Source: Puniceibacterium antarcticum | GTDB lineage: Bacteria; Pseudomonadota; Alphaproteobacteria; Rhodobacterales; Rhodobacteraceae | Length of the DNA: 64,000 bases | Reading direction: 5' to 3' | Assembly: GCF_002760615.1 (NCBI RefSeq) | Contig: NZ_AWWI01000016.1 | Location: forward strand, 62,001 to 126,000 | Part shown: piece by piece, positions 6,529 to 18,776 of the stretch | Layout of the letters: every line of letters starts with the position of its first letter | Numbering within the stretch: the stretch's first letter is position 1 | Made by a program: the position numbers and the translations under genes | Notes under the pieces: model-generated | Database searches by the model: none | What the model was told of the DNA's origin: nothing | The model's input: only the letters and a program-made list of their open reading frames with translations

Positions 6529-8832
6529 TCATGCCACGATCCTGACAGGTGTGCCTTTGTAGGCGGGCGTTTGCGAGTTCTTTTCATGATAGGACAAGGG
6601 CACCAGCGGGTTGAGTTCCGGATAATAGCCGGCAACGCAGCCATCCGGCAGATCATAGGGCGTCACGGAAAAATCCATGACGCGGCGCACGACGTCTGGT
6701 TCTATCGCCGTGATCAGGCTGACCTTTTGTCCTTCGCTCAGGCCCAGCCGCGCCATTTCGGCCCTGTTTATCAGCACGACCTCGCGGCTGCCCTTGAGCC
6801 CGCGCAGCCGGTCGGAAAAGCCGTAGATGGTGGTGTTGAACTGATCGTTGGAGCGCAGAGTGATCAGCGTCAGCACCGGATCGCCGCCGGGGTCCTCTCC
6901 CAGTGCCGAAAGCGTTGTTGGCGGGGTGAACTGGGCCTTGCCGCTTTCGGTTTTCCAGTTGCGCTCGCGCGCCGGATTGCCGCGATAAAAACCGCCCGGT
7001 TGCATCATCCGGCCGTTGAAATCCGCGAAGTCGTCGGGGTAGGTCTGTGCAATCAGGTCGCGGACCTGGTCATAGTTGGCAACCCAGCCGTCCCAATCCA
7101 GCCGGGGATTTGCGGGCAGCGTGGCCTTGGCAAGTCCCGCCACGATGGCGAGTTCGGAGAGCACATCCGGCGACGGGGGTTCAGCACCGCCCAGAGAGGC
7201 GTAGATGTGCGAAAAGGTGTCTTCCATCGAAACAGCCTGCGGTCCTGAGGCCTGAACGTCGCGGTCGGTGCGGCCAAGGCAGGGCAGAATGTACGACACC
7301 TGCCCGGGGGCGAGGTGTGAGCGGTTGAGTTTGGTTGCCACATGTACCGTCAGGCGCAGCCGGGGCCAGGCCGCTTCCATCCGGGCGCTGTCTGGCAGGG
7401 CGCGCACAAGGTTGCCGCCAAGGGAAATCATCGCCTCGACCCGGCCGTCCAGAATGCCCTCGCAGGCATGTACAGCGTTCAGCCCCTCTTGCGTCGGGGC
7501 ATCTATTCCGAACAGGTCCTTCAATTTATCCGCAGGCATCTGGGCGGATTTTTCGCCCACGCCGACCGTGCGCTGACCCTGCACGTTAGAATGACCGCGC
7601 ACAGGGGAAATCCCGGCGCCCAGCTTGCCGATATTGCCGCGCATGAGCAGCAGATTGCACAGCATCCCCAGATTGAGCCAGCCGTTGACATGCTGCGTCA
7701 GCCCCATGCCGTAGATCCCGATGGCGTTATCTGCGGAGAGGTAGATTTCTGCCGCCTCGCGGATCATCCCCTCTGTCAGGCCGGAATGTGCCTCGATCTC
7801 GGTCCAGCTTGCGTTGCGCACCAGAGCAACGGTTTCGTCAAAGCCGGTGGTTTCCTGCGCGATGAACGTCTGATCCAGCACTGTGCCCGGTGCGGCATCC
7901 TCGGCTTCGAGGACGCATTTCATCAGGCCTGTCATCACGGCAATGTCGCCTCCGGGGCGCACCTGATAGTATTTTTCCGAAATCTGCGTCGGTTTTGTGA
8001 TGGTCATCTGTCCGGGGCTTTGTGGATCGGCGAATTCGATCAGGCCACGCTCGCGCACCGGGTTGAAGGTCACGATGCGGCAGCCACGTTCAACGGCGGC
8101 TTTCAAGATATGCAGAAATCGCGGGCTGTTTGAGCCGGTGTTTTGTCCGAAGAAGAAGATTGTATCGCAGTGTTCGAAATCCTCCAGCGTGCAGGTGCCG
8201 ACGGGTGTGCCGATAAAGGTCTGCAGATTCACGCTGGTCGTTTCGTGACACATGTTCGAACTTTGCGGCAGGTTCTGATGCCCCATGGCGCGCGCGAACA
8301 GGGCGTAAAGGTAGGACGCTTCAAGGCCTGCGTGCCCAGATGCATAGAAGACGGCCTTTTGGGGTGCCATCGCGGCCAACTCTTTGCCGATTTCGGCAAA
8401 GGCGTCATCCCAGCTGACCGGGAGGTAACGGTCCTGATCGCGATCATAGCGCAGGGGTTCGCTCAGCCGTCCGGATTTCTCAAGATCGTGGTCATGCCAG
8501 CCTTGCAGCTCTGTGACGGAATGATCGGCAAAGAATTTGGCCCCGGCGCGGTTGCGGTCAAGTTCCCACATCGTGGCTTTTGCGCCGTTCTCGCAGAACT
8601 CAAAGGTGCCGGGGTCTTTCGGCTTTGCCCAGGCGCATGAGGAACACATGACCCCACCGGGTTTGTTCAGCGTTGCAAGGATCTTGGCTGCAACCGCAGA
8701 GGTGTGGGAGTCTGCGGCGATGCGGGCAATCCCCTGCAGTGAACCCCAGCCACCAGCAGGGTGATGGTCATATGGGGTGTCCGGATCCTGTGTGGTGGCG
8801 GGATGGTCGTCCGGGGGATTGATGTTGTCCAT
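6529..8832 (-). CDS. FdhF/YdeP-family molybdopterin oxidoreductase
   Basis: A 767-residue molybdopterin-dependent oxidoreductase, typical length for the YdeP/FdhF-like group. Near the N-terminus are GGVMCSSCAWAKP and FCENGA, a reduced cysteine set rather than the full four-cysteine cluster motif of true formate dehydrogenases. The middle part contains the large molybdopterin-binding domains (SSNMCHETTS, FFGQNTGSNSPR), and the C-terminal 150 residues form the dinucleotide-binding barrel (LTLITLRSNDQFNTTIYG). No signal peptide is evident, so it is probably cytosolic. The substrate is unknown; E. coli YdeP is associated with acid resistance, but this does not fix the role here. The ATG is preceded by AGGAG at 9 bases. 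No partner redox subunit or fdhD is adjacent. Confidence 0.88.
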   Translation of the reverse strand: MDNINPPDDHPATTQDPDTPYDHHPAGGWGSLQGIARIAADSHTSAVAAKILATLNKPGGVMCSSCAWAKPKDPGTFEFCENGAKATMWELDRNRAGAKFFADHSVTELQGWHDHDLEKSGRLSEPLRYDRDQDRYLPVSWDDAFAEIGKELAAMAPQKAVFYASGHAGLEASYLYALFARAMGHQNLPQSSNMCHETTSVNLQTFIGTPVGTCTLEDFEHCDTIFFFGQNTGSNSPRFLHILKAAVERGCRIVTFNPVRERGLIEFADPQSPGQMTITKPTQISEKYYQVRPGGDIAVMTGLMKCVLEAEDAAPGTVLDQTFIAQETTGFDETVALVRNASWTEIEAHSGLTEGMIREAAEIYLSADNAIGIYGMGLTQHVNGWLNLGMLCNLLLMRGNIGKLGAGISPVRGHSNVQGQRTVGVGEKSAQMPADKLKDLFGIDAPTQEGLNAVHACEGILDGRVEAMISLGGNLVRALPDSARMEAAWPRLRLTVHVATKLNRSHLAPGQVSYILPCLGRTDRDVQASGPQAVSMEDTFSHIYASLGGAEPPSPDVLSELAIVAGLAKATLPANPRLDWDGWVANYDQVRDLIAQTYPDDFADFNGRMMQPGGFYRGNPARERNWKTESGKAQFTPPTTLSALGEDPGGDPVLTLITLRSNDQFNTTIYGFSDRLRGLKGSREVVLINRAEMARLGLSEGQKVSLITAIEPDVVRRVMDFSVTPYDLPDGCVAGYYPELNPLVPLSYHEKNSQTPAYKGTPVRIVA

Positions 8833-9363: not shown

Positions 9364-11004
9364 ATGTCCTGTATGCTGGAAATCTCATTCTTTGGAACCT
9401 GCACCGTTCGTGTGACAAGCCCTGCACCGTTTGAGGTCAAGGGAGTCAAGCACAGGGCGTTGTTTGCCCTTCTGGCAACGGCACCGATGGGGCGCCGGAC
9501 CCGAAGCTTTCTACAGGAGACACTTTGGGGGGCGGCGGATTATGACGCCGGTCATCAGAATCTGCGGCGCGCGCTGACAGATCTGCGCAAGCTGCTTGGC
9601 CCCGCTTTTGAGCAGTTGTTTTCGGTCAGCACGACGGATATCGAACTTAATCGCGACCGCCTGCAGTTTCAAAGCGTACCACCGGATGGCCCGTTTCTTG
9701 ACGATCTGAACATCCGCACACCGGCCTTCCTTGCTTGGCGCGATGGGATCCGTGCTGATCCCGGGGCTGTGGCCAGCCTGTGCGGGGCGGTGCGCCCGCG
9801 ACCCCGCGGGCGTTTCCTGCCACGTATCGCTGCGCTGCCGCTGTTCGTGCCGGATGGTGACCCGGAGCTGAGGGTTCTTGCTGACTGGGTTGCCGAAGAG
9901 ATGACGCGGATGCTGTCGCGGTCTTCGATCCTGTCGGTCATTTCGCATCTGTCGTGCCGCGCTATGGCCAAGCGTCTGCTTGATGTGGTCGAGATCCGCG
10001 CCACGCTGGATATCGACTATCTGTGTGCCGGAACCTTGCGGCGCGCGGGCGGCGAGATCATCTGCGATTTCGACTTTGTCGATGCAGAGACAGGTGTCTT
10101 TATGTGGAACCGCAACCTCAGCTGTCCTGAGGGTGCGTTCCTGAGAGAGCTGCCCGCGCGGATCGAGCATACGGTGCGCAGTATTGGTCGGAGCATCGCG
10201 GAGGCCACGGTGGGGCTGGCGCGCCAGACGGCCTTGCCGCACATGCCTGATCACAGGCTGGTGCTGACCGGGGTGGCCCTGATGCACCGCCCTACGCTGC
10301 GCGATTTCATGGCCGCGCGCGGCTATCTGTCAGAGGCTGCCCTGCGTGCGCCGGACGCGGCAGATGTGCATGCCTGGCTTGGGAAATGGCATGCGCTGAA
10401 CGTCTTCAAGGGTTACACAACCGACAGGGCAGGGGACACGGCTGCAGCGCTGGCCTGCACGGCGCGCGCGCTGGACCTGGACCCTGAATCGAGCTTTGGA
10501 CTGACCGTGGACGGGTTCATCCATGGCAACGTGATGGCGCGAATGGATATTGCCGAGGTCCGATATGGCGCCGCGCAGGAAATCAATCCCAATGAAAGCC
10601 TGTCGTGGCTGCTGCGCGGTGCGCTGATGGCCTTTCGCGACGACGGTCAGGCCGCGATCGAGGCGACACGCCGGGCGCGGCTTTTGTCGCCCATCGACCC
10701 GTTCGGCTATTACTTCGACAGCATCGCGGCGACCGCGCATCTGGCTGCGGGCAACTGGCAGACCGCGCTGGATCTGGCTGAGACGTCGATGAAGTCCAAT
10801 GACCGCCATATCTCGACGCTGCGTTCGCGGATCACCGCGCTGCACCAGTTGGACCGGGGTGAGGACGCACGCGTCGCCGCAGAGGATCTGAAGCGGCGGT
10901 TTCCCAACTTCACGCTCGACGAGTACAGACGCATGCACCCGTCGGCGCACAATCGGACCGGGCGCATCGTGATTGATGCGCTGTCGGCATCCGGCATTTC
11001 TTGA
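9364..11004 (+). CDS. SARP/OmpR-like winged-helix regulator with TolB-N-like and TPR regions
   Basis: A 546-residue putative transcription regulator. Residues about 5-95 resemble the DNA-binding winged helix of SARP-type activators (LEISFFGTCTV, ALFALLATAPMGRRTR, LRRALTDLRKLLG). Residues about 160-280 resemble the adenylate-cyclase/TolB-N-like module that often follows it in alphaproteobacteria (VADWVAEEM-type segment, LSCRAMAKR, DIDYLCAGTLRRAGG). The rest, about 290-530, is helical and TPR-like (ALDLDPESSFGLTVDGFIHG). ATG at 9364 has AAGGGA upstream; ATG at 9373 is an alternative. It is separated from the haloperoxidase-like gene by only 27 bases and probably controls the protease cluster (inference from position). 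Confidence 0.78.
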   Translation: MSCMLEISFFGTCTVRVTSPAPFEVKGVKHRALFALLATAPMGRRTRSFLQETLWGAADYDAGHQNLRRALTDLRKLLGPAFEQLFSVSTTDIELNRDRLQFQSVPPDGPFLDDLNIRTPAFLAWRDGIRADPGAVASLCGAVRPRPRGRFLPRIAALPLFVPDGDPELRVLADWVAEEMTRMLSRSSILSVISHLSCRAMAKRLLDVVEIRATLDIDYLCAGTLRRAGGEIICDFDFVDAETGVFMWNRNLSCPEGAFLRELPARIEHTVRSIGRSIAEATVGLARQTALPHMPDHRLVLTGVALMHRPTLRDFMAARGYLSEAALRAPDAADVHAWLGKWHALNVFKGYTTDRAGDTAAALACTARALDLDPESSFGLTVDGFIHGNVMARMDIAEVRYGAAQEINPNESLSWLLRGALMAFRDDGQAAIEATRRARLLSPIDPFGYYFDSIAATAHLAAGNWQTALDLAETSMKSNDRHISTLRSRITALHQLDRGEDARVAAEDLKRRFPNFTLDEYRRMHPSAHNRTGRIVIDALSASGIS

Positions 11005-11031
11005 CGCCACATTCATGAAAGGGAGCAGGTG

Positions 11032-12153
11032 ATGGCACAGAACGGTGGTTTTGGAGGGTTCGGGGGTTTTGGAGGATTTGGCGGCTTCGGGGGGTTTGGG
11101 GGGGTTGGCGGCGCGGGCATGTTCACCGGGCTTGGCGGGTTTCTGGGTTCTGGGGATACGGGCGGACACGATCCGATGACGACAGCGGGTCTGCAGATCA
11201 CGGCAGAAGGTCTGCACCATCTGACACTGGGGGTGGACCAGCCGGCCGTGGACGAGATGCCCATGAACGATACGGATAATTTCGACACCTGGGCCGCCTG
11301 GGTGCGCGGCAGTCTTTATGTGTCGGAGTTCGTGTCGGGGCTGTCGTACCAAGTCGACAAGGCGGCGCGCACAGCCGCGCTGAGCGTCGATGGCGCGATG
11401 GTGGCGCATTTCGTGAAACCGCAGCCGGACACACTGCGCGCACAAGGCAGGATCGTTGCGGATTATGCCGCGCTGCGCGCGGACCGCAGCGCCGAGATCG
11501 GATCGCAACTGGGGTTTCCCACCGCCTATTTTTCAATGTTGCTTGGGCTGAACGTGGCACGGCACAACAAGACCTACGAGCTGATCACAGCGACCCAAGT
11601 CGCCGCTGCCCATACCGCGATGATCATCAAGCATGCCCTTGCCGTGCGCCGCCCCGACCAGATGGATGCGGGAATCCTGCCAATGATTCCGACGCCGGGC
11701 CATGCGAGTTTCCCGTCCGCCCATGCGACCGAGGCTTATGCCGTGGCAACCGTGCTGCGGGCGCTGCTGCGCGAATGGGGGCATCTGTCGGATGGGGACG
11801 CCCGGGATAGGGTCCTGACGGGTCTGGCCGAGCGCATTGCCGTCAACCGCACCGTCGCCGGGGTGCATTACCCGATCGACAGCTGGGCTGGGGCGGCGCT
11901 GGGGCGGGTGGTCGGGCAGACCGTGCTTGCGCGGGCGAATGCGGGATGCGGAGGCGTGACGGCATTCCGGTATGACCCCGAGGCGGCCACTGCGACCCTG
12001 ACCCCGGGGGCGGTTGATTTTGCCGATGTTGATTTTGCGCTACCACAGACGGCCGCAACATTTGGGATTGAAGAGACGGGCACGATTGCCCCGGCGCATC
12101 GTCCGGGCTTTTCCTGGCTCTGGCAGAAGGCCGTGAGCGAGAGGGGGCTTTAG
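11032..12153 (+). CDS. Vanadium haloperoxidase/PAP2-type phosphatase-like protein with Gly-Phe repeat
   Basis: A 373-residue protein. Residues 5-25 are a GGF repeat; residues about 170-290 carry the full acid phosphatase/vanadium-haloperoxidase signature: Lys200 with RRP at 206-208, PSAHATEA at 228-235 and Arg273...His279...Asp283 in NRTVAGVHYPID. These residues bind vanadate or phosphate. The spacing suits the haloperoxidase-like branch, but true halogenation versus phosphatase activity cannot be told from sequence. There is no signal peptide or membrane helix. ATG at 11032 is preceded by AAAGGGAG; the in-frame GTG just before it was rejected. Its TAG stop shares one base with the next gene, so it is coupled to the protease. 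Confidence 0.82.
   Translation: MAQNGGFGGFGGFGGFGGFGGFGGVGGAGMFTGLGGFLGSGDTGGHDPMTTAGLQITAEGLHHLTLGVDQPAVDEMPMNDTDNFDTWAAWVRGSLYVSEFVSGLSYQVDKAARTAALSVDGAMVAHFVKPQPDTLRAQGRIVADYAALRADRSAEIGSQLGFPTAYFSMLLGLNVARHNKTYELITATQVAAAHTAMIIKHALAVRRPDQMDAGILPMIPTPGHASFPSAHATEAYAVATVLRALLREWGHLSDGDARDRVLTGLAERIAVNRTVAGVHYPIDSWAGAALGRVVGQTVLARANAGCGGVTAFRYDPEAATATLTPGAVDFADVDFALPQTAATFGIEETGTIAPAHRPGFSWLWQKAVSERGL
11044..11110 (+). repeat. In-gene GGN-TTY-GGN tandem repeat coding for Gly-Phe-Gly
   Basis: About seven copies of a 9-base unit (GGGTTTGGA-like, varied at third codon positions) encode the GGF repeat at the N-terminus of the haloperoxidase-like protein. The third-base variation implies selection on the protein rather than recent slippage. 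Confidence 0.75.
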
Positions 12154-14135
12154 TGTACGGGCCGCGGGAAACCCGGATAGACCGCTATACCGGACCTTAT
12201 GAACGCTGGGTGTTTTCGCAGGAACTTGGGCGGTCTTTTGCCTTTCCGGCGATCCGCGATGGCGAGTTGCGCTACATGACCGCGCTGATGGAGCGGGGCG
12301 GCACCCTGTCGAATTGTGAACTGAGCGATCTTCGGATCCCGCCGCTTTGGGCGGGACTGCCAAAGCCCGAGGTTGTGCCCTTTGCCTTTCGCGTTGACAC
12401 GGCGCCCGATGATGTCGGGCTGTCCCGCGCGATGTCGCGCCTTGGCGGGCCGCGCGTGAGGATGAATTTTCCCGTCGATCCTGCGGCCTGGACCGCAGAG
12501 TATGACGCGGGGGCAGCATCACAAGGCTGGACGCATGACCGCCCCGTGCCTTCGGTCGTGATCGGTGTCATCGATGATGGCCTGCCGTTCGCGCACCGGG
12601 CGTTTCTGAACGGACAGGGACAGACACGCGTCAGCAACGTCTGGCTGCAGGCGGCCCGGGCAGAGCCAAGCGCCGCCGTGCCGTTTGGTCGCGAGCTGAC
12701 GAACGGGCAGATCGACGCGCTGCGCACCGCGCATCTGCCCCATGAGCGGGCGATTTACCGCGCGGCCGGCGCCGTAGATGCCGGTCTGCCCGAACTTGGC
12801 GGGGCCCTGCGCCACCACGGCACCCATGGTGGACACATGGCCGGAATCGCGGCGGGCAACGATCCCTTTGTCGGCGCGTCGCCGCTGCCGGACGGGGCCT
12901 GGATCGTCGGGGTACAGCTGCCCAACACGGTGGCTTGGGACACTTCGGGATTTGGCAAGGAGGCGTATATGCTGGCAGCGCTACATTACATCTTTGATCG
13001 TGCTGACCGGATCGCCGAGGGTTTCGGTGTCGGGATGCTGCCGCTTGTCGTGAATTTCAGCTATGGCTGGTCGGCCAACGGCCATGATGGCCAGACAGGT
13101 ATCGAGCGGGCGATGGAGGATCTTTTGACGGCCAGGCGTGCGCGTCAGTCTCAAACCGCCATCGTCATGCCGACGGGCAACAACTTTGCGCAGGATATGC
13201 ACGCCGCGATCCCGCCTGAGCGGCTTGGTGGGCCATTCCGTGTCGGATGGCAGATCCTGCCGGATGACCGGACCTCCTCTTACCTCGAAATCTGGTGGCC
13301 CGAGGGTTTTGATGCCAAGGGCTGGCGGGTCGAGATTGCCCCGCCAGAGGGGCATGGGCTGGACCGGCCAGCATTGCTGTCTGTCACGGCTGATCCAGCA
13401 CTTGCTGGAGGCGATCCCCGGCGGTTCGACGAGATCGAGCAGGGCGGGCAGAACATCGGGCAGATCTCGGCGGATCGGCATCTTGGGCGGCGCTGGCGGG
13501 TGATGCTGGCGCTGATCCCTACGGTGACGGTCAGCGGCGATCCGCGGCGTGCGCCTGCCGGACGCTGGACGGTGACGCTTTGGCCCGGCAGCAATGTGCC
13601 GCAGGACCCTGTCGAGATCTGGGTCCAGCGCGATGACGATCCCGTGGCGCTGCACACGTTCGGACGACAGAGCAGGCTTGTGGATATGGCGGCAGAGGGC
13701 GCTACCCCGAGCGTGGTGACGGGCTTCGGGTGCTACAACGGCATAGGCTCAGCGCCATCGGTGACCCGCGTCGCGGGTCATTGCGGCACCAGCGGCAGCC
13801 CCGCAGCCTATTCGGGTGCGGGGAGGTTGGGATTTACGTCCGACGGCGTTGTTACGAGGGGAGTGGTTCCGACGCTGAGTGCCGTATCGGATCAGGGTCC
13901 GGCACGCCCGGGTCTGCCGTCCATCGGCGTTCTGTCAGGATCAGGCGCGCGGTTGCAAGGCACAAGTGCCGCCGCCGCATCCGTCACCCGGCTGATGGCC
14001 GCGAGTGTCGCATCTGGCGGTGCGCTCTTTGATGCGATGACGCCCATTCCGCAGAGTGAGACAGATGCCCGGCGCACCGCGCGGCAGGGGTCTGCCCTGG
14101 CCCCTGCGGTTTGTGGCAGACGTTTCGAAGGCTGA
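12153..14135 (+). CDS. Subtilisin-like (S8) serine protease
   Basis: A 660-residue S8-family protease. The catalytic triad is visible: Asp141 in VIGVIDDG, His225 in HGTHGGHMAG, and Ser605 in LQGTSAAAAS. The N-terminal 130 residues are an unassigned domain without a signal peptide, and a roughly 250-residue insert separates the His and Ser regions (about 290-590), including a segment resembling a beta-sandwich (WWPEGFDAKGWRVEI). Lack of an export signal suggests a cytosolic protease or non-classical export. GTG at 12153 is preceded by AGAGGGGGCT and overlaps the upstream stop by one base. It faces the caspase-like gene across a hairpin. Subtilases paired with caspase-like proteins recall regulatory or conflict protease systems (inference). 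Confidence 0.87.
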   Translation: MYGPRETRIDRYTGPYERWVFSQELGRSFAFPAIRDGELRYMTALMERGGTLSNCELSDLRIPPLWAGLPKPEVVPFAFRVDTAPDDVGLSRAMSRLGGPRVRMNFPVDPAAWTAEYDAGAASQGWTHDRPVPSVVIGVIDDGLPFAHRAFLNGQGQTRVSNVWLQAARAEPSAAVPFGRELTNGQIDALRTAHLPHERAIYRAAGAVDAGLPELGGALRHHGTHGGHMAGIAAGNDPFVGASPLPDGAWIVGVQLPNTVAWDTSGFGKEAYMLAALHYIFDRADRIAEGFGVGMLPLVVNFSYGWSANGHDGQTGIERAMEDLLTARRARQSQTAIVMPTGNNFAQDMHAAIPPERLGGPFRVGWQILPDDRTSSYLEIWWPEGFDAKGWRVEIAPPEGHGLDRPALLSVTADPALAGGDPRRFDEIEQGGQNIGQISADRHLGRRWRVMLALIPTVTVSGDPRRAPAGRWTVTLWPGSNVPQDPVEIWVQRDDDPVALHTFGRQSRLVDMAAEGATPSVVTGFGCYNGIGSAPSVTRVAGHCGTSGSPAAYSGAGRLGFTSDGVVTRGVVPTLSAVSDQGPARPGLPSIGVLSGSGARLQGTSAAAASVTRLMAASVASGGALFDAMTPIPQSETDARRTARQGSALAPAVCGRRFEG

Positions 14136-14212
14136 ATATAGGGGCTGTACGGCAGGCCTGAGAGGCACCGGGACATTTTGATCGCCGGGATAGCTGGGGC
14201 GCTTCAAAACGC

Positions 14213-14242
14213 TCTGCGGCGCTCGTTTCCGAACGCCGCAGA
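14213..14242. terminator. Hairpin between convergent protease genes
   Basis: TCTGCGGCG at 14213-14221 pairs exactly with CGCCGCAGA at 14234-14242 around a 12-base loop that can itself form a small CGTT/AACG stem. It lies between the ends of the subtilase (14135) and the caspase-like gene (14310). Confidence 0.6.
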
Positions 14243-14309
14243 TACGCCCGCCTGGGGCACTGGAGGGTTCGTCAACCGACCGGGAGAGGAGCAGGTTGAC
14301 CCGAGTGCA

Positions 14310-15665
14310 TCACAGGGCGAAGGGCCTTTCGCAGAGCCTTGCAGCAGCACCCATCGAACCGTCGGGCGAAAGCTGCGGCGTGGCATCGGGGCGCGAACGG
14401 CTGAGAACCGCGCGGTGGAACTGGCTGTAGCTTCCGGTGAACCCGCCGCTGTTCCAGGTCTGCGAAATGTTGAAGGTGAAGAGCGAGAGGGGATTGCCCG
14501 CCGGGGTGGTCTGATGATCCATCGCGGCGGCAAAGGCGGTGAGGGTGCAGGCCAGTTCTTCGCGCTCCTTGTTGCCGACTGCGGTGCGGACTGAATCGTA
14601 GACCTGCTTGTTGCGCTCGTAGAACTGCGAGCCTTCGACGAATTTGGGCCCGCCAACGGTGCTGCGCGCGATAAGATCGGCAAAAACATCCGCTGTCTTC
14701 TCGATCAGCTCATCGGAGTGGGTGGGGAGTTTGACAAGTTCGGGATCTTCCCCATCAAGAGCTGCCTCAAGCGATTTCGAGGTGATGGGGATGAACGCCT
14801 TTGCCGCTTCCACGGGATCAACACCGGGCAAGGTCAGAGCAAGAGGGGCCTTCAGCATTTCGATGGATTTGGTGCGTTGGGCGATCCGTTCGACATCCGC
14901 CATGTCTGCGGGATCGGCGGCAACCATCTTGAATGCTGTTCCGGAATGGCAGCTGTCAAAGACCAGATGTATGCGCACGCCTTCCTTGAATTCGGTCAGG
15001 AGGGCATGGAGTTCGTCGTCGATGAGCATGCGGTCATGAAAACACAGCGTCTCGTCACGCCCGTCGCCTTCGTCGTCCGAGGACAGATTGGCGACCTGAC
15101 TGCCATGACCTGAAAAGGTGATGAAAGCCACGTCGCCGGCAAAGAGGTTGGCCGCCGCATTGCGCATGAAGGATGCGAAATTGGCCGTGGTCGCCATTTC
15201 ATTCTCAAGCCGGGTCGTTTCGTACTGCAGCCGCTGGGCGATCCGCTCCATCTCGCGGGCATCGTTGACACAGGAGGGCAGCGCCAGATCACCGCCGTAA
15301 TGGTTGGGATCGACCTTATCTACGCCCACATGCAGGCTGACGCCCTGGGGCTTGCGGGCGGTTTCGCCTGCGAAGATGTCGTCGAGCTGGGTCAGCACTT
15401 GGCGCCCGACAACCCCGTCGGCGATCAGCCCGTAATCGCGTTGAAACGCCTCGACGGCGGCTTCGGTGCGGCGGCCAAAGGCGCCGTCGATTTCGGCACC
15501 GGCCATGTAGCCGTTGTTGAGCTCTGCAAGGGCCGTCTGGATCGCGACGATGGCGCCGCGTTCCCGTTCGCGCCTTGCGATCGGGGCTTCGTTGTTGGAC
15601 GCCCGTTCGAGGCGTTTCGCGGCGGAGTCGGTGACGACGGTGGTGAAACGGTTGGCACGGAGCAT
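14310..15665 (-). CDS. Caspase-like (C14) protease with N-terminal peptidoglycan-binding-type domain
   Basis: A 451-residue protein. Residues about 38-98 match the helical PG_binding_1 fold (AIQTALAELNNGYMAG, AEIDGAFGRRTEAAVEAFQ). Residues about 108-260 form the caspase/metacaspase p20 domain, with catalytic His187 in FSGHGS and Cys239 in LVFDSCHSG. The remaining 190 residues may include a p10-like part and an unassigned tail. No signal peptide or membrane helix is seen, so the PG-binding-type fold may serve as a protein-interaction module. ATG at 15665 has AGGAGG 7 bases upstream, so the nine-residue upstream extension was dropped. It is last in a three-gene leftward operon. Activation mechanism and substrates are unknown. 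Confidence 0.87.
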   Translation of the reverse strand: MLRANRFTTVVTDSAAKRLERASNNEAPIARRERERGAIVAIQTALAELNNGYMAGAEIDGAFGRRTEAAVEAFQRDYGLIADGVVGRQVLTQLDDIFAGETARKPQGVSLHVGVDKVDPNHYGGDLALPSCVNDAREMERIAQRLQYETTRLENEMATTANFASFMRNAAANLFAGDVAFITFSGHGSQVANLSSDDEGDGRDETLCFHDRMLIDDELHALLTEFKEGVRIHLVFDSCHSGTAFKMVAADPADMADVERIAQRTKSIEMLKAPLALTLPGVDPVEAAKAFIPITSKSLEAALDGEDPELVKLPTHSDELIEKTADVFADLIARSTVGGPKFVEGSQFYERNKQVYDSVRTAVGNKEREELACTLTAFAAAMDHQTTPAGNPLSLFTFNISQTWNSGGFTGSYSQFHRAVLSRSRPDATPQLSPDGSMGAAARLCERPFAL

Positions 15666-15688
15666 GGTTGTTCCTCCTTCTGGGGCTG

Positions 15689-17158
15689 TCAAACGGGAGT
15701 GTTGGCGGGCCAGCGGTAGCTGGGGTTGGCATTTGGGGCTTGGGGCAGCGGGTCACACCCGAAGCCGACGACCCATATGGTCTGATCGCGCGGTGTAGGG
15801 GGCGGGTTGGCCGGTGGTGCATTGGTTGCGCGTGCAGCGATGAGGCTGCGGGCCAGTGTCAGACGCGTCTGGATCTGCGCCCCGTCGATCTTTTGCAGGA
15901 GGGGGTTGTGGAGCTGGACGATTTTGCCTGTCCTTAGCGGGCTGCTGACGACCGGCGCGCGGGCCGCCGGTTTTACGGTGCTGAGGGATGCGGCGATTGC
16001 GGGTCTGACCGAGGCCCTGGAGGGGAGAGGTTTGATTGTCGCGCTTGCAAGGACGTCTTTGCTCAGCACGGCGGCGGTGACGACGGGGGAGCGCGGTTGC
16101 ATGGTGACGACCCCCGCGGCCGGCTTTGCGATCTGACCCATCACAAGCGGGACTGAGGTGCGCAAGACCACTGCGCGCCCGGGCTGAAGGGGGTTGGCGG
16201 GGCGTGGCGCGGGTGCTGGCCGCGGGTTTTCGAGCCGCAACTCTGCCTCTCTGACAAGGTAGACACGATTGGGAATGGCTGGCAGCACGCCCTTCGCGCC
16301 GGTGCCGTCCGAAACGCCGGAGCCGCTGAGGGTCCAGTCATCGGCGGCATAGATCGCTTCGGTCAGCCAGTCACGATGCAGCGACAGCACCGCGTAGCGA
16401 AAGCGAACGCTGCCCATGCGCGTGCCGACCCAGCTTTGCCAGGCGCGCAGACCGGCGGGACTGTGGTCAAGCGCACGCTGCAGGTCCTGCAGATCGACCT
16501 CGGCGTTGAGCCATCCGGCCTCATACACGGCTGATATCGGTGAAAAGCCCGTCATCGCATAGGGCAGACCTGCGGGATCCACAGGCAGGACCCCATCGAC
16601 CCGCAGCCTGTCCGCATCAGCCAGCGGCAGGGTCGACCGGCCTGCCAGCCGCGTGATGGTCGCCTGCGCCGCCTCGATATCAAGTTTCGAGCCCTCTACG
16701 ATCCAGGCCGTCATTGCCGCCGAGATCTCAAGATCAGAGGCGTCGGTTAGCACGAGGTCCGTGTAGCCATTGGAATGCTCTTGATAGAGACTGTAGCGCG
16801 CAGTCATCTGGGGAAGTCCGAGCGGACCTTCGGTGTAGAGCATTGCGCGGGCCGCGTCGAATTCGCGGGTCTCCCACTCGGTCCAGGCCCGCTCGGCGAA
16901 GATCATGCGCCGAATGATTTGGGCGTGGACATGCCATAGTGCGGTTGCAGCGAAAGGTTCAGCCGGCTGGTCCTTTTGCGCCGCAAAATTCACCATGCGG
17001 GAAAACTCTGCGACCCGGGCCATATCGGCCCCGTCCTGCGCCGATTCCAAGCGGGCCAGCGCCGTCTGATGGGGTGCCGAGGGCCATGATGCAAACCCCG
17101 CACCGTCGCAGTTGGCATGAAGCCACGCCGCGAGACCTATGTGGAGACCTGTCTGCAT
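15689..17158 (-). CDS. Unrecognised 489-residue protein of the caspase cluster
   Basis: No family recognised. Residues 1-290 look globular and helix-rich, with many Trp and His (WHVHAQIIRRMIFAERAW, YSLYQEHSNGYTDLVL). Residues about 310-440 are rich in Pro, Ala, Val and Arg, like a flexible linker. The end (TIWVVGFGCDPLPQ) is a short separate segment. There is no signal peptide or transmembrane helix. The ATG lies 4 bases past the stop of the upstream 537-residue gene, and the stop is 23 bases before the caspase start, so the three are surely cotranscribed. A role as partner, substrate or scaffold of the caspase-like protease is the simplest inference. Confidence 0.75.
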   Translation of the reverse strand: MQTGLHIGLAAWLHANCDGAGFASWPSAPHQTALARLESAQDGADMARVAEFSRMVNFAAQKDQPAEPFAATALWHVHAQIIRRMIFAERAWTEWETREFDAARAMLYTEGPLGLPQMTARYSLYQEHSNGYTDLVLTDASDLEISAAMTAWIVEGSKLDIEAAQATITRLAGRSTLPLADADRLRVDGVLPVDPAGLPYAMTGFSPISAVYEAGWLNAEVDLQDLQRALDHSPAGLRAWQSWVGTRMGSVRFRYAVLSLHRDWLTEAIYAADDWTLSGSGVSDGTGAKGVLPAIPNRVYLVREAELRLENPRPAPAPRPANPLQPGRAVVLRTSVPLVMGQIAKPAAGVVTMQPRSPVVTAAVLSKDVLASATIKPLPSRASVRPAIAASLSTVKPAARAPVVSSPLRTGKIVQLHNPLLQKIDGAQIQTRLTLARSLIAARATNAPPANPPPTPRDQTIWVVGFGCDPLPQAPNANPSYRWPANTPV

Positions 17159-17162
17159 GACA

Positions 17163-18776
17163 TCAGATCCAGTTCTTGATGTCGGGCGAAGGATCGGCGG
17201 TCTTGGGGAAAAGCGCGGACATGAAACCCAGCAGTTGCATCCCGTTCACCTTGATCGACGCGCCGTCATATTCGTAATTGCTTTTTGAGCTGCGGTTGGC
17301 CTGCTGGTAGCGGCCACCGATCACGAAGGGGCCGATGCCGACCAATCCGCCGCCCTGCGCCGTACTTTCCTGCGATTTCATGTACTTCACGATATCGCTG
17401 GAATAGATCCGCAGGTTGCGCAAAAAGAGCGCCTTGGTCGGATAGCCGATCAGCGCGCCATTCGGATTGCTGGTGCCGTCCGAATGCTTGTCGGTCTTGT
17501 AGTCGCGGACAAACGTATCATTCGGCTTCCAGCCACGCGACATGAAGAAGCTGGGCTCAAAGGCGAACCGCGCGATTTCAACGGTGGTGTATTCGAATTC
17601 GATACCGAAATCGGAACTGTCGAAATTGAAGGTTTTGGTGGTTTTGCCGCCGCCGCCGCCACCGCCGATGGTGAAGGCGCCCAGAGACAGACCAAACTGG
17701 CCCCCACCCGAACTGCTGCTGCTGCTGCGCTCGACCGTGCGTTTCAGCGAGCGTTCGGAAAAGTGCGACCAGCCGGAGGAGCGGGCAAATGCGCCGGGAA
17801 TGATGCTTGCGGGGGAGAAGGAGTAGCCGTAAGCGCCGGTCGTGGAATTTTCCAGATCCAGAACGGTCTGCAGAAGCATGTCCTTCCACAGGACCATGGA
17901 CTGACCGGTGATGTGGCTGATGGCTGCCTGAGCCCGCTCTATATCGTTCTTGTAACCGCGTGCGGTCCAGGCGCTCTGGGCCTGAAGCGCGCGCTGGCGA
18001 TAGATGCCACCCGATCTCTGCCATTCGATAGCATCGGCGGCGGTGCCGCTACTGGCCCGCGCCAGACGCGAAGCGTAGTCGATCGCCGCCTCCTCGTAGG
18101 CCTGCTTGTATTTCATGTAGGCTTCCATGGCCGGGCTTGGCCGCGGTTCCATGGTTTTTTTGCCAGTCAGGAAATCCTCGACCTCTACCTGGATGGTCAG
18201 AAGGGCCTGCATTCGTTCCAGCAGCGCCTTTTCCTGAGGGGTCAGCGCATCGTCGGCCACTTTGCACAGCTTTAGCGTGTCCTTGTAAACGGTGCTGAGC
18301 TTGCGGTTGGACTGGCCATAGACGACCGAGATATGCTTGTGCTTGCCCGCGCTCTGGTCGGCCGCCCAGCCGGTGTCGGAGGGCGCTGGTTCGGAAACGG
18401 GGATGAAATCCACCAGCCGCGACCACTGTTCCCAGCACCCCAGAAGGTGCTGCTGATACATGCGCTTGGCCTCTTCGAGGGCGTCCTGGGGGCTCATGCC
18501 CATCGGGCGCGCCTCGGCGTCGCCCGCGTCAGGGTCATCGTTCTCTTTCGGGCCGCTGAGCGTTTCCACCAATTCGCGGAAATCCTCGAGGTTTAATTGC
18601 GTCGGCCCGGCATAGGGGCCAGCGATGGCAAAATCAAAGAAGCTCTCGTCGATCGGCATCCCGGGGGAGAGAAAGTTGAGCTTCATGTTGGCGGGCAACG
18701 GCAGGTCCGCGGTGCCACCTGTCAGCCCTTCGTAAAGCTTGTTGATGACGTATCCCATCAGGTCTTCGAGTTTCAT
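17163..18776 (-). CDS. Unrecognised 537-residue protein heading the caspase operon
   Basis: No family recognised. The N-terminus (MKLEDLMGYVINKLYEGLTGG) is helical; residues about 95-300 are largely helical with coiled-coil character; a serine run followed by a glycine run (residues about 355-385, SSSSSSGGG and GGGGGGGK) separates them from a C-terminal beta-like part with FNFDSSDFGIEFEYTTVEIAR. The Gly-rich linker recalls proteins that assemble or insert into other structures, but there is no direct evidence. ATG at 18776 follows GGAGGGGAAACA; the six-residue upstream extension was dropped. No export signal is visible. As first gene of the operon it is probably the most highly expressed component. 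Confidence 0.75.
   Translation of the reverse strand: MKLEDLMGYVINKLYEGLTGGTADLPLPANMKLNFLSPGMPIDESFFDFAIAGPYAGPTQLNLEDFRELVETLSGPKENDDPDAGDAEARPMGMSPQDALEEAKRMYQQHLLGCWEQWSRLVDFIPVSEPAPSDTGWAADQSAGKHKHISVVYGQSNRKLSTVYKDTLKLCKVADDALTPQEKALLERMQALLTIQVEVEDFLTGKKTMEPRPSPAMEAYMKYKQAYEEAAIDYASRLARASSGTAADAIEWQRSGGIYRQRALQAQSAWTARGYKNDIERAQAAISHITGQSMVLWKDMLLQTVLDLENSTTGAYGYSFSPASIIPGAFARSSGWSHFSERSLKRTVERSSSSSSGGGQFGLSLGAFTIGGGGGGGKTTKTFNFDSSDFGIEFEYTTVEIARFAFEPSFFMSRGWKPNDTFVRDYKTDKHSDGTSNPNGALIGYPTKALFLRNLRIYSSDIVKYMKSQESTAQGGGLVGIGPFVIGGRYQQANRSSKSNYEYDGASIKVNGMQLLGFMSALFPKTADPSPDIKNWI

Follow-up and report, generated by a model that had tools for sequence, protein, structure and literature searches.

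A conserved three-gene cassette with a variable peptide array in its PAP2-fold enzyme, and a rarer caspase module beside it, in Puniceibacterium antarcticum

The six-gene locus

The stretch of DNA considered here (64,000 nucleotides of Puniceibacterium antarcticum, contig NZ_AWWI01000016.1, positions 62,001 to 126,000; hereafter the window) harbors six neighboring genes, whose frames were confirmed to be intact at the coordinates and spacing given below. The six genes are two modules: module A, consisting of a regulator, an enzyme of the PAP2/haloperoxidase fold and an S8 serine protease, and module B, consisting of the proteins X6 and X5 and a caspase-type protease. The N-terminus of the PAP2-fold enzyme carries a tandem array of a short peptide “word”. 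The features are as follows (window positions, with the basis of each call in brackets):

9364–11004, plus strand: regulator (REG) of 546 residues, with a winged-helix-like N-terminus and a TPR-like C-terminus (open reading frame, ORF; weak Pfam matches; Pelagimonas relative)
11029–12153, plus strand: PAP2/haloperoxidase-fold enzyme of 374 residues (PF01569, 3.6e-11; motif residues; family profile against PDB)
11044–11097, plus strand: N-terminal peptide array of this enzyme, (GGF)6, then GGV, GGA (translation; relatives)
12153–14135, plus strand: S8 serine protease of 660 residues with a Csp-like family profile (ORF, Pfam, catalytic residues, PDB profile match)
14310–15692, minus strand: PG_binding_1 plus caspase-type protease (C14), likely start 15665 (Pfam, catalytic residues, alignment with the relative in genome G929)
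15689–17158, minus strand: X5, a paralog of X6, 489 residues (X6-family profile, 4.9e-27; G929 relative 46% identical)
17163–18776, minus strand: X6, founder of a rare family with no Pfam match, 537 residues (ORF, Pfam, family profile)

The enzyme gene starts with GTG, 24 bases after the regulator, or 27 bases after it if the ATG at 11032 (the next codon) is used, and is overlapped by the S8 gene by 1 base; the 27-base gap and the overlap are those given by the first-pass annotation of this DNA. The longer frame of X6 reaches 18794, but the start at 18776 agrees with the aligned starts in genomes G592 and G929, and the aligned G929 protein likewise points to the internal ATG at 15665 as the probable start of the caspase. 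As had been noted earlier, both proteases retain their catalytic residues (D141, H225, N343 and S605 in S8; H196 and C248 in the caspase). The earlier statement that none of the six proteins has an export signal also holds, as judged by hydropathy and not by signal-peptide prediction: no strongly hydrophobic segment occurs in any of them, the highest 19-residue Kyte–Doolittle mean being 1.25. That annotation made no mention of the (GGF)6 array, the paralogy of X5 and X6 or the peptidoglycan-binding domain of the caspase.

The identities of the module A proteins are of unequal firmness. The window regulator gives sub-threshold Pfam matches alone (Trans_reg_C, 0.066; TPR_14, 0.0044), and its Pelagimonas relative exceeds the cut-offs with Trans_reg_C (1.2e-11) and several TPR models. 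The label “SARP-like”, attached to it earlier, is weak: such a protein should combine a winged helix with BTAD, and the window protein shows the former below the cut-off and the latter not at all. The enzyme exceeds the Pfam cut-off and displays K201-x6-RP, PSAH at residues 229–232 and NR-x5-H-x3-D from residue 273, i.e., the signature of the vanadium haloperoxidase/acid phosphatase superfamily (K-x6-RP, PSGH, R-x5-H-x3-D) with PSAH for PSGH. The nearest PDB chains to its family profile are an acid phosphatase, LpxE and a vanadium bromoperoxidase (7f17, 6.8e-19; 1qi9, 1.8e-7); the profile is closer to acid phosphatase and LpxE than to haloperoxidases, and either phosphatase or haloperoxidase activity is putative. 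The family shares the three motifs and these profile hits with class A acid phosphatases and vanadium haloperoxidases and differs from them in its N-terminal peptide array. The predicted structure of the enzyme was too poor for use (mean predicted local distance difference test score, pLDDT, of 31). The Peptidase_S8 match of the protease stays just below the cut-off (4.5e-4; 20.1 bits vs. 21.8). The best PDB matches of its family profile are Csp germination proteases (9sj6, 2.4e-22; CspB 4i0w, 6.5e-14), and the S8 triad together with this match, significant through the family profile only, places it among the Csp-type subtilases.

A conserved cassette with a peptide array

Module A is one conserved unit. 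Relatives of the PAP2-fold enzyme (E ≤ 1e-3) were found in 84 of 248 genomes of the same taxonomic family, and 60 family places were fetched, broadly best first (fragment G212 was skipped; G218:C3 had already been fetched). The cassette was counted over 80 enzyme frames with E < 1e-60 from the family and from plasmid, class and Phaeobacter loci: 76 of them have an S8 relative no more than 1.5 kb away, and 73 have a regulator relative no more than 4.5 kb away. The first 40 family loci yielded 41 enzyme frames (41 with S8, 40 with regulator) and the next 20 yielded 19, locus L140 falling below the cut (15 and 19), so that S8 accompanies 56 of the 60 enzyme frames at the 60 family loci. All frames have both partners at the 8 plasmid loci (8 frames), the 4 Phaeobacter loci (4 frames) and in the window plus L005 of Pelagimonas G218 (2 frames); at the 8 class loci, all 6 frames have S8 and none has a regulator within the short flanks.

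Left out of these counts were the duplicate loci L001–L003, L006–L027, L074, L075, L080–L082, L104, L108 and L115, enzyme frames weaker than 1e-60 (L140), the PAP2-like protein of G899, and G929 as a whole. Because ORFs of these very loci supplied the profiles of the regulator, the enzyme, S8 and X6, the E-values of members are self-fulfilling; the ORFs themselves came from a simple longest-frame caller that missed some genes in high-GC loci. The cassette order recurs on plasmids of Microvirga, Terrarubrum and Bosea (Hyphomicrobiales, outside Rhodobacterales), with the genes annotated or profile-matched; with S8 as the query, matches were found in 9 of 385 class genomes. The orientation of the regulator relative to the cassette varies, being co-oriented or divergent. 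Of the first 40 loci, 5 have an animal-type heme peroxidase adjoining the cassette (4 on the S8 side, 1 on the regulator side), as does L140, the L037 member being confirmed by Pfam. At L094:4415-10210 (G051), a gene pair whose second member is a fusion of GDSL lipase and caspase has, immediately upstream, a gene of the same peroxidase family (PF03098, 3e-18).

Unexpectedly, the enzyme of module A carries an array. In the window enzyme, residues 6–23 are a perfect tandem (GGF)6, followed by GGV and GGA. The equivalent place in relatives is occupied by other words, e.g., GGV, GGL, NGA, GGY, SAY, QG, GNA, ATM, TGW, SHG, HAD, NVG, GKE, EAV, ENW and TPH. An automatic test found an array run in 72 of the 80 enzyme frames. 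Among the other 8, four (L106, L109, L110, L113) are cut by the locus end ahead of the N-terminus, three carry arrays recognized by eye (GKM in L055, GAQ in L065, GPH in L133) and one (L057) shows an imperfect run of the NTRS type; in L140, which lies below the threshold, NGGM was again recognized by eye. Overall, at least three perfect units are present in 76 of 77 readable N-termini, the short array of the Pelagimonas locus L005 consisting of three consecutive AAF units only. The period is 3 residues in 56 of the 72 automatic arrays, 4 residues in 11, 2 residues in 4 and 5 residues in 1, and the S8-linked copies comprise 51 different words, counted up to rotation. When a run of four or more units was demanded, in a stricter test on the ORFs of 44 loci and the window, it occurred in 35 of 41 ORFs matching the PAP2 profile and in none of 42 S8, 36 regulator and 683 other ORFs. 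In the window genome, the only place with (GGF)3 is the array itself, so for this word no shared tag was found elsewhere.

Words are shared by all 36 pairs of enzymes with more than 90% identity of the body (all Phaeobacter), by 3 of 9 pairs at 60–70%, by 6 of 58 at 50–60% and by 4 of 174 at 40–50%. Phaeobacter arrays hold between 5 and 7 copies, and two strains of P. gallaeciensis differ, with 7 and 6. At L038:7358-18254, two complete cassettes of one genome face each other, their words being GS and SAY. The enzyme frame breaks shortly past the array at L155:3000-3700 (G929) and L065:9150-9500, which may reflect sequencing error, decay or slippage.

Constraint on the array acts at the peptide level. 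Adjacent units show 1289 synonymous vs. 18 non-synonymous codon differences in 1861 comparisons; for random single-base changes in the array codons, the synonymous share would be 23%. The figure of 18 is a lower bound, since the detection of arrays relied on identity of the peptide and their extension tolerated one mismatch per unit at most. Adjacent units are identical in DNA in just 23 of 609 cases. Moreover, adjacent codons differ more than is expected from shuffling among the units within an array (1262 vs. 1089 ± 17 differences, z = 10.2), and at a rate of 0.70 vs. the 0.55 predicted from codon usage in the gene body; the same excess would arise if stable arrays were preferentially retained. 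Pure DNA slippage as the origin of the array was rejected: the DNA is non-repetitive and the peptide is repetitive. The N-terminus of this conserved enzyme has to be repetitive while the word is nearly free, a striking pattern in which constraint is strong inside one protein, words turn over from lineage to lineage and the DNA shuns repetition.

Module B and its linkage to module A

The caspase of module B contains Peptidase_C14 (3.2e-15) and PG_binding_1 (3e-14), both over the Pfam cut-off, and the His–Cys pair within the former assigns it to the metacaspase/Peptidase_C14 family; the nearest solved chain is GSU0716 (3bij, 2.7e-43). A survey of prokaryotic metacaspases lists 11 sequences (1.6%) with the same combination of C14 and PG_binding_1, the accessible part of that paper making no mention of X6/X5 partners or of a link to module A (PMC3501461). 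Among the 248 family genomes, the four next-best relatives of the caspase are longer proteins in another gene pair, not beside the cassette. The one tested by Pfam is a GDSL-lipase fusion, whose neighbor is papain-like by eye and has no Pfam match.

X5 and X6 are distant paralogs (X5 matches the X6-family profile at 4.9e-27) with no Pfam family. The X6 profile gave no better than E = 0.17 against PDB, and the predicted X6 structure was too poor for use (mean pLDDT 46). A phage or plasmid origin was considered and rejected: neither protein matches PHROG, two pattern scans found no relatives in viral contigs, and plasmids hold no near match of the cluster. X6 relatives occur in 3 of 248 family genomes, 2 of 385 class genomes and four plasmids, and a wider profile finds them in 5 of 390 order genomes. 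A scan of genome contigs returned two loci, both already known; it used one weak pattern, so these counts are a lower bound of the spread.

X5 relatives were sought with the X6-family profile and by direct comparison. The X6/X5 pair is present at 8 of 10 X6 loci (the window, G929, G218, G230, G592, Neorhizobium, Sinorhizobium and Rhizobium), and a single family member at Acuticoccus and G899; a weak short hit in G049 was left out of this set. Wall-related partners were recognized at four loci: the PG_binding caspase in the window and G929, an M15 peptidase with PG_binding_1 in G592, which also has a hemopexin-repeat protein upstream, and OmpA in Acuticoccus. The X6/X5 family with its exchangeable partners represents a second unexplored module. 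In Shimia (G230, L004:8604-11130), the pair lies within a photosynthesis gene cluster, flanked, by eye, by PpsR-type regulator-like and bacteriochlorophyll synthase-like genes. On a Sinorhizobium meliloti plasmid (L078:2817-14174), X5 and X6 begin with apparent signal peptides, again by eye; a third family member is found downstream, and a run of annotated TIR-domain genes lies a few kb away. The wall-related partners and the apparent signal peptides are compatible with an envelope role for X6/X5; pore formation would be a guess.

Module B is a rarer unit that joins module A in two genera. In G929, of a second genus, all six genes are contiguous on one strand (regulator, enzyme, S8, X6, X5, caspase), module B being inverted in the window relative to this arrangement. 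The identities are 64% for the caspase, 46% for X5, 64% for X6, 53% for S8, 55% for the enzyme and 58–61% for the regulator (two pieces). The word is also GGF, and the frames of the regulator and the enzyme are broken in the assembly. Hence, the modules are able to form one locus. Six family genomes gave an X6 hit, and in 4 of them X6 lies near the regulator and the enzyme: besides the window and G929, in Pelagimonas G218, where X6/X5 is about 5 kb from a complete cassette, and in G899, where an X6-like gene adjoins a regulator gene and a divergent gene for a PAP2-like protein (1.7e-11) lacking an array, with no S8 in the 19.9 kb fetched. No such linkage is seen in G230, whose cassette is located elsewhere (L031), or in G049. 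Outside the family, no cassette enzyme or S8 occurs near X6 within the flanks retrieved from G592 and the four plasmids, the sole remote regulator match being in Neorhizobium (3e-8). Between X6 and the regulator of Pelagimonas G218 (L005:10673-14082), three neighboring proteins of 340–394 residues share similar starts and strongly acidic tails; one was tested by Pfam and gave no match.

Chance adjacency of two operons is disfavored by G929, G218 and G899. The view that A and B are unrelated neighbors and the array a by-product of DNA slippage could draw on the separation of the modules at most loci and on the variable copy number in Phaeobacter, but it conflicts with the four X6 linkages, the six-gene set in two genera and the non-repetitive array DNA behind a repetitive peptide; it was already disfavored and is regarded as very improbable.

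The first-pass annotation had suggested that all six genes are a single two-protease system, e.g., a regulated S8–caspase cascade of cell death or conflict. In its favor are the six-gene set in two genera, the X6 linkage and the wall-binding domain of the caspase, seen together with the activation of a wall hydrolase by Csp proteases. Still, no caspase relative was found at the 40 other enzyme loci screened (L028–L067; the 20 later loci were not searched for caspase), and such a cascade seems rather unlikely. The single-system reading is thus partly supported: module B does join module A, which is nonetheless found without it at most loci. The set recurs in G929 with differing order and strand and is best described as a common cassette to which a rare module has been added; the caspase and S8 genes are neighbors again there, although in these two genera only. 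No link to known defense emerged. Membership in an anti-phage system of PADLOC-DB 2.0.0 would call for model matches to more than one component, and of the six proteins only the caspase matches (one generic caspase model, 1.1e-9); 1 to 2 of 12 S8 family members match IetS or subtilase models weakly, and no defense genes were recognized in the window translations.

Possible readers and roles of the array

At the protein level, the array would be a working part of module A. Its units are identical within a protein and differ between lineages, as they would if the array were a ligand or substrate recognized by a reader that matches it. The proteins encoded next to it are the likeliest candidates for this role: S8 may process or bind the array, the freed peptide or the enzyme may be sensed by the TPR part of the regulator, and the regulator may set the expression of A and, where present, of B. 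Module B would then act at the cell envelope, the X6/X5 pair carrying or admitting a wall-bound partner (the caspase in the window), with lysis, conflict or envelope remodeling as possible outcomes. Reading of the array by S8 and/or the TPR part of the regulator is put forward as a tentative hypothesis, and the proposal as a whole is equally tentative. If the word is indeed read by the partner protease or regulator, it would be a recognition code of a new kind, of which nature already offers dozens of variants.

A partial correlation between word and partner similarity over 57 loci (of the 80 frames, eight Phaeobacter near-copies and loci without an array, S8 or a regulator frame of more than 400 residues were dropped; these permutation tests do not correct for shared ancestry) gave r = 0.18 (p 0.0005) for S8, r = 0.06 (p 0.07) for the regulator and r = −0.03 for the enzyme body. 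The best-correlating S8 windows fall in what we take, from the layout of subtilisin, to be parts of the substrate cleft. Among the 14 loci whose words have a period other than 3 residues (2, 4 or 5), 12 share, by eye, one S8 type that is missing from the remaining 43. Co-evolution of S8 with the word was dropped as a claim because the apparent signal vanishes inside the 3-residue class.

Several observations weigh against a read array and a wall-directed effector arm. Among the 43 loci with 3-residue words (shared ancestry again not removed), r is −0.01 for S8 and 0.18 for the regulator (p 0.001), with no regulator window exceeding the null maximum. S8 is absent from the 1.5 kb around four enzyme frames, one of which sits at a contig end, yet all four carry an array, three by the automatic test and the fourth by eye. 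The window S8 (P0003), used as a single sequence, has no PDB match at 1e-5. No wall-related partner was recognized at 6 of the 10 X6 loci, and none of the six proteins has an export signal, although a wall-bound effector needs some export route.

About as probable as a read array is a structural tail, i.e., a self-assembling or clustering low-complexity region with regular packing that nothing reads. Array units are rich in Gly, Ala, Ser and Asn, some resemble the silk motifs GGX and GAGS, and homogeneity within the protein is expected from regular packing; the chemical diversity of the units (AVE, GKE, TGW, HAD, TPH, QG), which share no evident physical property, speaks against it. A further option is a precursor–enzyme fusion, in which the array is modified by its own enzyme (by halogenation or otherwise) and short peptides are set free by S8, in the manner of peptide natural products that modify themselves. 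It would explain why homogeneous units adjoin a haloperoxidase-fold enzyme and a subtilase, and the heme peroxidase that adjoins the cassette at L140 and at 5 of the initial 40 loci fits it as well. However, units such as GGV, AGI, GNV and GGA lack a residue expected as a haloperoxidase target, the family profile is nearer to acid phosphatases, and the fusion is deemed improbable.

The boldest version of the read-array proposal would make module A a cytoplasmic peptide-word system: the enzyme displays a lineage-specific word of 2–5 residues in many identical copies, a dedicated Csp-like subtilase and the TPR regulator recognize it, this lock and key controls the cassette and an optional effector arm (X6/X5 with the wall-bound caspase), and the word diversifies like a pheromone or kin-recognition tag. 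It is speculative and thought unlikely. The combination of a TPR regulator, a subtilase and a multi-copy peptide would fit the logic of RRNPP peptide signaling and of the yeast alpha-factor with Kex2, but no separate precursor is present here and the regulator binds DNA through a different type of domain; the exported precursor of RRNPP systems also has no counterpart, as neither the enzyme nor S8 has an export-like hydrophobic segment by hydropathy.

Other known systems resemble parts of the locus. The Csp germination proteases of clostridia (CspB) share the family profile and the catalytic triad with S8, which differs in its alphaproteobacterial host and in having a PAP2-fold enzyme and a TPR regulator as partners. 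Csp proteases act in spore germination, where they activate a wall hydrolase; spore formation is not expected in Alphaproteobacteria. HxsA (His-Xaa-Ser repeat proteins) is similar in its short tandem repeats, and 2 of 13 enzyme family members match HisXaaSer_A4 (best 9.3e-10), but the match covers low-complexity repeats and most members have other units; no radical SAM neighbors were seen among the annotated plasmid loci of the cassette. Ternary conflict systems with caspase or trypsin peptidases likewise place a caspase-type peptidase in an operon with uncharacterized partners, differing in their NTPase parts, none of which was recognized here; haloperoxidase and PAP2 are not mentioned in the accessible part of that paper (PMC7159879).

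The earlier remark that no described system has this exact set stands for open-access full texts, in which neither the gene set nor the array was found, subscription papers lying outside the search. The cluster is adjoined in the window by a long frame (6529–8832) that looks like a molybdopterin oxidoreductase by eye, and the remaining window genes, by reading of their translations, belong to transport and metabolism.

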